From: Conexibacter arvalis
GTDB lineage: Bacteria; Actinomycetota; Thermoleophilia; Solirubrobacterales; Solirubrobacteraceae
Reading direction: 5' to 3'
Length of the DNA stretch: 64,000 bases
Assembly (NCBI RefSeq): GCF_014199525.1
Contig: NZ_JACHNU010000004.1
Span: forward strand, 124,001 to 188,000
Part shown: positions 33,776 to 54,527 of the stretch, one piece after another
Numbering within the stretch: position 1 is the stretch's first letter
Layout: every line of letters begins with the position of its first letter
Program-made: the position numbers and the translations under genes
The notes under the pieces: generated by a model
What the model was told of the DNA's origin: nothing
Databases searched by the model: none
What the model saw: only the letters and a program-made list of their open reading frames with translations

Positions 33776-33794
33776 GCGCGCGCAGCACCGCCAC

Positions 33795-33837
33795 CAGTGG
33801 CGTTCTGGGGGCGCATATCACCCCCAGAACGCCACTG
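33795..33837. repeat. Palindromic repeat element, copy 1
   Basis: Perfect 17-bp arms, CAGTGGCGTTCTGGGGG (33795-33811) and its complement (33821-33837), with a 9-nt loop around GCATATCA. It matches the reverse complement of the element at 52607-52651. It lies between the DyP-like stop and the probable signal peptide of the next gene. Confidence 0.75.
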
Positions 33838-33845
33838 CTCGCCCC

Positions 33846-47713: not shown

Positions 47714-47757
47714 TCCGCCGCCGCCCGCGCCCGACACCCTGGCGCGTCCGCGCTCTC

Positions 47758-47794
47758 TGGCGGTTTGTACAGGTTGTTCCTGTACGAACCGCCA
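47758..47794. repeat. Palindromic repeat element, variant
   Basis: Arms TGGCGGTTTGTACAGG (47758-47773) and CCTGTACGAACCGCCA (47779-47794) pair at 15 of 16 positions around a 5-nt loop. It shares the TGGCG/CGCCA ends with the elements at 33.8 and 52.6 kb but not the core. It could act as a terminator after the DUF3159 gene. Confidence 0.6.
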
Positions 47795-47822
47795 ATGATC
47801 CGAGGCCGCTTCGCCATCGCGC

Positions 47823-52591: not shown

Positions 52592-52606
52592 CGCGCCCGA
52601 CCCGGA

Positions 52607-52651
52607 CCAATGGCGCCCTGGGGGTGATATGCACCCCCAAAGCGCCACTCC
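52607..52651. repeat. Palindromic repeat element, copy 2
   Basis: Arms TGGCGCCCTGGGGGTG (52611-52626) and CACCCCCAAAGCGCCA (52632-52647) pair at 14 of 16 positions. Read on the minus strand it matches the element at 33795-33837, including the central GCATATCACCCCCAG. It lies just after the ROK gene stop. Confidence 0.75.
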
Positions 52652-52669
52652 TCCCCACGCGCGGGGCGG

Positions 52670-52964: not shown

Positions 52965-53023
52965 TAACCGGAGCGGCCGCTCCCCTTGTGCTACCTTGCG
53001 CAACCGGATCAACCACTCCGGTT
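52965..53023. promoter_or_regulatory. Operator/promoter region of the DHA2-TetR pair
   Basis: AACCGGA (53002-53008) and TCCGGTT (53017-53023) are exact inverted arms 8 bp apart, just downstream of a TACCTT -10 box (52992-52997). Another AACCGGA half-site (52965-52971) leads into the perfect palindrome GGAGCGGCCGCTCC (52970-52983). This is the expected target of the TetR regulator encoded downstream. Confidence 0.6.
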
Positions 53024-53048
53024 ACATCAAGGGACGGAAGAAGACCGC

Positions 53049-54527
53049 ATGTCAACACAGGCCCCAGCCGCATCCGCGCAGGCCTCGAGCACGGAGACGA
53101 ACCGCTGGGTCGTGCTCGTGCTCGTCTGCCTCGCCCAGTTCATGGTCGTGCTCGACGCGACGATCGTGAACGTCGCGCTGCCGTCGATCCAGTCGGACCT
53201 GAACTTCAGCCCGGGCAACCTCGCCTGGATCATCAACTCCTACACGCTGCTCTTCGGCGGCTTCCTGCTGCTCGGCGGCCGCGCCGCCGACCTCTTCGGG
53301 CGCAAGCGCGTCTTCCTCGCCGGCGTCGTCCTCTTCAGCATCGCGTCGATGCTGTGCGGGCTGGCGCAGTCGCAGGGGACGCTGATCGCCTTCCGCGCCC
53401 TCCAGGGCCTCGGCGCCGCGCTCGTCTCCCCCGCCGCGCTCTCGATCATCATGACCACCTTCGCCGACGGCGCCGAGCGCACGAAGGCGCTCGCCGTCTG
53501 GGGCGCGATCGCCGCCTCCGGCTCGGCCTTCGGCCTGCTGCTCGGCGGCTTCCTGACCGAGTCGCTGTCGTGGGAGTGGATCTTCATCGTCAACGTCCCG
53601 ATCGGCATCGCCGCCTTCCTCTTCTCGCTCAGACTGATCCCCGAGTCCAAGGGCGAGAGCGACGGCCAGAGCTTCGACCTCGTCGGCGCGCTGCTCGTCA
53701 CCGGCGGCCTCGTGTCGCTCGTCTACGCGATCGTCAAGGCCGGCGAGGAGAGCTGGGGCTCGAGCGCGACGCTCGGCTTCGGCGCGCTGGGCATCGTGCT
53801 GCTGATCGCCTTCATCGCGATAGAGACCCGCCATCGCGACCCGCTCGTGCGGCTCGGGATCTTCAAGATCCGCTCGCTCTCGACCTCCAACGGCGTGATG
53901 CTCGTCGTCGCCGGCGGCATGTTCGCGATGTTCTTCTTCGCGACGATCTACGTCCAGGAGGTGATGGGCTACTCGCCGCTGAAGGCCGGCCTCGCCTTCC
54001 TGCCGTTCACCGTCGGCATCATCGCCGGCTCGGTGATGGCCCAGCAGCTGATCCCGCGGATCGGCGTGCGGCTGCAGATCCTTGGCGGCCTCACGCTGGC
54101 CGCGATCGGCCTGCTGCTGATGACGCGGATCACGCCGGAGGGCTCCTACGCCGCCGAGCTGCTGCCGGCCGTGATCGTGATGTCGATCGGCATGGGCAAC
54201 ACGTTCGTCCCGCTGACGCTGCTGGCGACGACGAACGTCGAGGCCGAGGACGCCGGGCTCGCCTCCGGCCTCTTCAACACCTCCCAGCAGATCGGCGGCG
54301 CGCTCGGCCTCTCGATCCTCTCGACGCTCGCCGCGTCGCGGACCGACGGCCTGATCGCGGACGGCTCCAACCCGGTCGGCGCGCTCGTCGACGGCTACCA
54401 CCTCGCCTTCCTGATCGGCGCGGTCTTCATCGCCGCCGGCGCCGCCGCGATCGTCCTGCTGATCCGCAGAAGGGACGTCGCGTCGATCAACGCGGCCGAG
54501 GCCGGGCAGGTCCAGATGGCGCACTGA
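53049..54527 (+). CDS. MFS multidrug efflux transporter, DHA2 (14-TM) type
   Basis: 492 residues. VVLVLVCLAQFMVVLDATIV, LLGGRAADLFGRKRVFLAG (motif A), FRALQGLGAALVSPAALSI (motif C region) and SWEWIFIVNVPIG define the EmrB/QacA branch. ATG 53049 follows GGAAGAAG; the TACCTT box and inverted repeat lie upstream, so the start at 52986 is rejected. The TetR gene begins 47 bp after its stop, and the pair likely forms one drug-inducible operon. Substrate unknown. Confidence 0.9.
   Translation: MSTQAPAASAQASSTETNRWVVLVLVCLAQFMVVLDATIVNVALPSIQSDLNFSPGNLAWIINSYTLLFGGFLLLGGRAADLFGRKRVFLAGVVLFSIASMLCGLAQSQGTLIAFRALQGLGAALVSPAALSIIMTTFADGAERTKALAVWGAIAASGSAFGLLLGGFLTESLSWEWIFIVNVPIGIAAFLFSLRLIPESKGESDGQSFDLVGALLVTGGLVSLVYAIVKAGEESWGSSATLGFGALGIVLLIAFIAIETRHRDPLVRLGIFKIRSLSTSNGVMLVVAGGMFAMFFFATIYVQEVMGYSPLKAGLAFLPFTVGIIAGSVMAQQLIPRIGVRLQILGGLTLAAIGLLLMTRITPEGSYAAELLPAVIVMSIGMGNTFVPLTLLATTNVEAEDAGLASGLFNTSQQIGGALGLSILSTLAASRTDGLIADGSNPVGALVDGYHLAFLIGAVFIAAGAAAIVLLIRRRDVASINAAEAGQVQMAH

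Follow-up and report, generated by a model that had tools for sequence, protein, structure and literature searches.

What are the short palindromes that recur behind genes in the genome of Conexibacter arvalis, and what maintains them? The question is raised by a 64,000-nucleotide stretch of this genome (contig NZ_JACHNU010000004.1, positions 124,001 to 188,000; here the window), in which an initial annotation made from the DNA letters had noticed two related palindromes at 33.8 and 52.6 kb and a further hairpin at 47.76 kb, and had suggested a family resembling REPs (repetitive extragenic palindromes) or MITEs (miniature inverted-repeat transposable elements), or a mobile terminator. Our data suggest that the palindromes are probably the DNA (or hairpin) partners of selfish-looking endonuclease genes, which lie outside the window and join an AbiEi part to a nuclease part of the EDxHD type.

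The palindrome at 33.8 and 52.6 kb is real and dispersed. Its central 15-mer, GCATATCACCCCCAG, occurs exactly at 33813-33827 (+ strand) and 52618-52632 (- strand), the sole matches in the window when up to three mismatches are allowed. Shuffled sequences gave 0.78 matches on average, and because 17 of 100 shuffles had at least two, the 15-mer alone is weak evidence. The full element is a 51-bp palindrome (family F1), with the consensus GGAGGAG-TGGCG-NNN-T-GGGGG-TGnATATCA-CCCCC-A-NNN-CGCCA-CTCCTCC surrounding this core, and as it was found at 21 places genome-wide, and not only at the two in the window, chance is ruled out. A structure model built from the 21 aligned copies recovers exactly these places in the 5.2-Mb genome (E values 4e-16 to 5e-12 on the better strand), together with four weaker relatives and one match at chance level. 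The 47.76-kb hairpin has the same outer TGGCG/CGCCA boxes and another core, GTACAGG, just as claimed at first; it belongs to a second family, F2, with six places genome-wide. Both families share one frame, a 23-bp stem with a 5-nt loop. The coordinates given initially were slightly off and are corrected below; the position of all three elements at gene 3' ends is borne out.

Palindromes of families F1 and F2 in the window, compared with the palindromes at two endonuclease genes of the same genome (L074 and L082)
Element	Position	Strand	E value	Identity to gene palindrome	Surroundings
F1 solo palindrome	33791..33841	+	1.4e-12	41/51 (L074)	15 nt past predicted stop of + gene; 10 nt before next predicted + gene
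F1 solo palindrome	52604..52654	-	3e-13	45/51 (L074)	behind + gene, 12 nt past predicted stop
F2 solo palindrome	47751..47801	+		38/51 (L082)	37 nt past predicted stop of + gene

The symmetry ends at 51 bp, the flanks of 27 copies being no more complementary than shuffled flanks. Within the family, the three variable stem positions covary (none of 500 shuffles scored as high), which favours kept pairing, with the reservation that the shuffles ignore relatedness and that a correction of palindromes at the DNA level could yield the same covariation. Pairing that is kept at unconserved positions points to either an extruded hairpin or such palindrome correction. Among 101 relatives searched with a single-palindrome model (R1), the F1 core is confined to this genome, and weak matches in 11 other genomes have different cores or are other sequence. 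The exact core had no match in wider collections of genome contigs and viral contigs, from which the records of this genome are possibly absent, and Rfam gave nothing at gathering scores within window positions 33000-54000.

F1 and F2 are not alone. A neutral scan for hairpins with stems of at least 14 and loops of 3-8, covering 864 kb of this genome (G000), 400 kb of G003 and 180 kb of G006, yielded more families, F5-F9 in this genome and others in G003 and G006. After re-centring, the family hairpins fit one frame of 51 nt, with an odd-loop centre, a stem of about 23 bp and ends near [CG]GA[GT]...[AC]TC[CG]. Matches of 51 nt to a superfamily model (R2) also occur elsewhere in the class Thermoleophilia. 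As 29 candidates per genome were scored, the counts are lower bounds; several weak matches are plain GC-rich sequence, and the R2 covariation arises partly by construction, because the source hairpins had been chosen as hairpins.

The lead to a partner gene came from two model matches about 950 bp apart in this genome and two in G014, from another genus of the same family; both pairs flank the same type of gene. The gene encodes AbiEi_4 (PF13338) and DUF559 (PF04480) domains; PF13338 scored 39.8 and 25.3 bits in the two proteins scanned (cut-off 25), DUF559 was also above its cut-off, and further homologues in this genome adjoin palindromes that belong to different families. A profile search detected eight AbiEi-DUF559 genes in this genome and 31 loci, fragments included, in seven Conexibacter genomes. 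In this genome, every one of the eight is preceded by a palindrome, 6-14 nt from the start of the profile match, and each palindrome is of a different family (F1 at L074, F2 at L082, F9 at L174, F7 at L413, F10 at L414, F5 at L415, F8 at L416 and F6 at L417), the closest pairs among them sharing 31/51 positions. Genus-wide, an upstream palindrome is found at 24 of 28 genes, compared with 64 of 1235 control gene starts that have any comparable hairpin. The 28 genes are what remains of 30 examined loci once two without N-terminus are set aside, a 52-residue fragment having been left out. The automatic count was 25/28 (Fisher p 1e-27), from which L384, with a 9-bp hairpin 37 nt away, was then dropped. 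By genome, the proportions are 8/8 (G000), 2/2 (G002), 5/6 (G003, where gene L419 has no upstream hairpin), 2/2 (G004), 4/4 (G005), 3/5 (G006) and 0/1 (G001). Downstream, a second copy of the same family follows the gene in 7 of the 24 units (37-48/51 identical), while the remaining 17 reach at most 26/51; the two copies around a unit stand in opposite orientation in F1 and in the same orientation in L403.

Palindromes at a distance from the genes follow the same pairing. Solo copies exist for seven of the eight gene families within the 864 kb scanned. Among 59 hairpins collected away from genes, four of them F2 copies added by hand, 36 match a gene palindrome of the same genome at 35/51 or better, and for 35 of these no gene palindrome of another genome matches better. 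The remaining 23 hairpins reach 31/51 at most, mostly 14-24, like random palindromes (n = 2000), which match gene palindromes with a mean of 22.5 and a maximum of 32/51. Within Conexibacter, the pairing of palindrome family and gene is well supported.

The AbiEi-DUF559 protein has about 290 residues and is predicted with confidence by AlphaFold2 (52 sequences; mean predicted local distance difference test score 93.9, predicted template modelling score 0.78). Residues 1-188 of the model resemble S. agalactiae AbiEi (6y8q; Foldseek E 3e-6; Z 12.9, root-mean-square deviation 3.9 over 176), and residues 197-292 the homing endonuclease I-Bth0305I (3r3p; E 2.5e-4; Z 13.4, deviation 2.1 over 91); the nuclease domain also resembles Vsr (1cw0; Z 11.2). 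PDB sequences retrieved by profile search point the same way (3hrl, 1.4e-11; 3r3p, 1.1e-6), and PADLOC AbiEi models match the N-terminal part, with a best E value of 1.6e-26 (L074). E200, D227, D240, H245 and D254 are invariant in 52/52 sequences and E238 in 51/52. We take the five invariant residues to be those of the namesake EDxHD motif, and judging by the alignment, the catalytic residues of this EDxHD-type domain are intact.

Gene and palindrome diverge together. Across 23 genes, protein identity and palindrome identity are correlated (Mantel r 0.42; 0 of 5000 permutations as high), also when between-genome pairs alone are considered (r 0.44; 0 of 10000), and identity is no higher among palindromes of one genome than among the rest (0.418 vs 0.427). 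At one orthologous site (L414, L401, L426, L315), units are present in G000, G003 and G005 with three different palindromes, and a metagenome-assembled genome of the Solirubrobacteraceae without the unit provides a visible empty unit site (L315). A second orthologous site (L416, L418, L402, L427) carries units in G000, G003 and G005 as well. A unit can therefore be passed on at a fixed site while its gene and its palindrome evolve jointly. In G004, the second site has an AbiEi-DUF559 gene in pieces, in several frames (L427, G004:C1 at about 789 kb), next to flanks that match the F8 unit site, and AbiEi-DUF559 genes therefore decay.

Solo copies are placed much like REPs, and this part of the first suggestion stands. 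In a scan of 1.44 Mb for at least 35/51 similarity to endonuclease-gene palindromes, with no hairpin required, we found 42 places, four within two units and 38 solo; palindromes read backwards gave none. The solo copies lie between convergent genes (17), between co-directional genes (15), between divergent genes (2) or inside predicted genes (4), so that 32/38 are convergent or co-directional. From the base pairs available, 3.8, 19.5 and 10.7 of the 34 intergenic copies would be expected in convergent, co-directional and divergent positions (p 2.5e-12), with coding sequence making up 92% of the bases. The gene calls, from a custom gene finder, are approximate, and the copy at 52604 counts as co-directional in one analysis and as convergent in another. 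Thirteen of the 15 co-directional copies begin no more than 40 nt past the preceding stop codon, the other two at 139 and 290 nt. The copies also look mobile, as was first supposed, being present here and absent from the matching sites of relatives. At the places of the window copies 52604 (six relatives) and 47751 (five relatives), the best likeness to any genus palindrome is 26-28/51, which is chance level; both neighbours of 52604 are kept only in G005. For the copy at 33791, the relatives' loci compared included no orthologous stretch. Relatives have no hairpin at the F5 site, and a hairpin of another family at the F6 site (G004, G005) and the F7 site (G003).

Could the palindromes simply be operator sites? 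An AbiEi-type protein would then repress its own gene, and the scattered copies would be regulatory or decoy sites, spread by an unrelated process in which the nuclease plays no part. The upstream palindrome in 24/28 genus genes, with a downstream one in only 7/24 units, is in line with this idea, as is a passage of PMC7319586 according to which AbiEi antitoxins autoregulate by binding inverted repeats in their own promoter. Moreover, the correlation with palindrome identity is higher for the AbiEi part (0.32 for the first 50 residues, 0.42 for the middle) than for the nuclease (0.24). However, most solo copies lie behind genes and not in promoters, with 2 of 34 intergenic copies in divergent positions against about 11 expected, a separate family-specific copying mechanism would be needed, and the catalytic residues are invariant. 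We therefore consider this explanation unlikely, if the best of the alternatives.

The placement of the solo copies is also what ordinary bidirectional terminators would show, repeated by copying or convergence and only incidentally near an endonuclease, given the excess of convergent copies, the short distances from stop codons and the hairpins of other families at some orthologous gene ends (the F6 and F7 sites). Such terminators are nevertheless a very improbable explanation. The families are paired one-to-one with genes, their sequence conservation far exceeds the needs of a hairpin, palindromes stand at the start of their own gene, and matching sites in relatives can be free of hairpins. 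By eye, no T-run is seen in the 12 nt on either side of the 27 F1 and F2 copies. On the transcribed strand of co-directional copies, G-U and A-C mismatches number 9 and 14; this missing excess of G-U argues against selection acting mainly on an RNA hairpin. It is possible that the palindromes act as mobile terminators.

We give just as little credence to a toxin, defence or addiction module whose genomic palindromes are titration or protection sites instead of mobile offspring. The N-terminal part does match PADLOC AbiEi models, and a phage-abortive toxin-antitoxin system to which AbiEi belongs is described in part of PMC3985639, but no partner toxin was noticed (no systematic search was made), and neither the copy number nor the 3'-end placement would be expected of protection sites. 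Classical REPs moved by a REP-associated tyrosine transposase (RAYT, a Y1 enzyme), resident or recently lost, are hardly credible at all: the palindromes are short, family-specific, behind genes and present in REP-like numbers, but they have no unpaired GTAG/CGTC-type tag, both ends being paired within the palindrome in F1 and in the superfamily alignment, and the domain of the TnpA-like RAYT/IS200 transposases, PF01797, had no match in any of the seven genus genomes (about 1% of each missing from the searched sequence), whereas the same search was positive in 5 of 14 named control genomes. The check proposed with the initial annotation, a search for a REP-associated TnpA-like gene, is negative, and the annotation missed the AbiEi/EDxHD gene tied to each family. 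Its comparison to MITEs is not supported. All 28 matches to F1 arms with at most one mismatch lie inside complete copies, leaving no solo arms of a parent transposon, and direct repeats at the 27 copies are no longer than in shuffled sequence (2.15 vs 2.04, P 0.34), so that there is no sign of target duplication.

Together, the data suggest a model in which an autonomous unit consists of an AbiEi/EDxHD gene that starts next to a 51-bp palindrome of its own and in some cases is followed by another copy. Recognition of the cognate palindrome would fall to the AbiEi part, which would probably bind as a homodimer, either to both arms or to an extruded hairpin. A homodimer reading both arms would explain the symmetry of the palindromes as well as the joint change of their arms between families. 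Bound at the upstream palindrome, the AbiEi part may repress its own gene, and the nuclease part may nick or cut at palindromes or target DNA, after which repair or replication would copy solo palindromes to new places. Most of the copies that persist would lie just past stop codons, in positions that make them nearly harmless and in which they could assist in ending or trimming transcripts. A broader claim, on which we are evenly divided, is that this is a separate kind of mobile unit, of an origin independent of HUH transposases, in which an AbiEi/EDxHD gene spreads itself and its own 51-bp palindromes, forms one-to-one lock-and-key pairs that diversify within a genome (eight in this one) and seeds gene 3' ends across Thermoleophilia.

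Several observations weigh against a partnership of palindromes and selfish endonuclease genes. Four of the 28 genus genes have no convincing upstream palindrome, and 17 of the 24 units have no downstream copy, so that the majority do not have the form of a classical flanked transposon. The 864 kb scanned contain no solo copy of F10, and target duplications are lacking. At three sites, units occupy the same place in at least two species, which means that at least some are inherited vertically and are not hopping. Outside the genus, adjacency of palindrome and gene start is seen for 5/19 genes in one set (p 0.003) and for 7/75 in a second (p 0.12), the latter not above control; because of this weak or non-significant adjacency, our claim of a pairing is restricted to Conexibacter and is no more than a suggestion for the class. 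Finally, no binding, cutting or movement has been observed in this analysis of sequences and predicted structures.

A few further palindromes deserve mention. Orphans that fit no resident gene occur at L202:18732 (G003), L216:7820 (G006) and L124 (G000; compared by eye), and a G003 family with the core TGGCGATCTGACCAC (L116, L120, L202:18732, L295) has no recognised partner gene. Hairpins with stems of 30-31 bp and TGATC/GATCA-type ends lie just behind AbiEi-DUF559 genes in Nakamurella, Pseudonocardia and Actinomycetospora (L361, L369, L370, L375) and might represent another version of this partnership in other Actinobacteria. Elsewhere in G000, an identical 33-nt hairpin with its surroundings is present at L148:53-85 and L168:54-86, about 53 nt into each of the contigs C1 and C4, and probably represents a repeat that interrupted the assembly; long G/C runs border a stretch of about 250 bp at G000:C1:846054-846312, either an assembly artefact or a low-complexity element. 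In the window, an imperfect 27-nt inverted repeat (TAACCGGAGCGG..., 74%) at 52965-53024, upstream of a gene predicted at 53112, is unrelated to the palindromes and perhaps regulatory.

Among known systems, REPs and their RAYTs come closest. Both have several families of short palindromes per genome that lie behind genes, a gene with a palindrome of its own family beside it, co-divergence of gene and palindrome, and solo copies whose family depends on the gene that is resident (for RAYTs, passages of PMC2817692); the co-divergence is behaviour like that of RAYTs, not membership of their family. The differences are an AbiEi part with an EDxHD nuclease here instead of an HUH tyrosine transposase, palindromes of 51 bp instead of 20-40, and no unpaired GTAG/CGTC head. 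Copies on both sides are limited to 7/24 units, whereas RAYTs are 'always flanked by two REPs', and no arrays of the BIME (bacterial interspersed mosaic element) type were seen, whereas such arrays hold about a third of RAYT loci, both according to the same excerpts (PMC2817692). Type IV AbiEi antitoxins share the fold of residues 1-188, the PADLOC models and the inverted repeats at their own gene start; they differ from the present proteins, which have a nuclease fusion, a repeat family scattered genome-wide and, in the absence of a systematic search, no noticed partner toxin. With I-Bth0305I and Vsr, the proteins share the catalytic domain fold, and the target of nearly 60 bp on which I-Bth0305I dimerises, as stated in a section of PMC3943268, is close to 51 bp. 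Here, however, the gene is free-standing, outside introns and equipped with an AbiEi DNA-binding part, and the sites are dispersed palindromes, compared with the one homing site of I-Bth0305I. REP-like palindromes without a terminal tag, as in M. tuberculosis, D. radiodurans, Bordetella, Brucella and Cyanobacteria, are similar by description, and differ in that a cognate protein is identified here.

Whether such untagged palindromes associate with specific binding proteins is asked in a passage of PMC3733652. In the literature searched, we found no description of a palindrome/endonuclease system of this kind and no paper that treats AbiEi and DUF559 together, and papers retrieved with DUF559 and 'palindrom' concern other subjects, judging by their titles. 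REP-like palindromes that have neither tag nor transposase have been an open question, and in Conexibacter they come with an intact, foldable partner. Eight natural pairs of protein and site in one genome allow swap experiments, and the pairing offers a role for AbiEi-DUF559 fusion proteins. By analogy, the association of palindromes with endonuclease genes looks like an unnoticed counterpart of the partnerships between REPs and their transposases.
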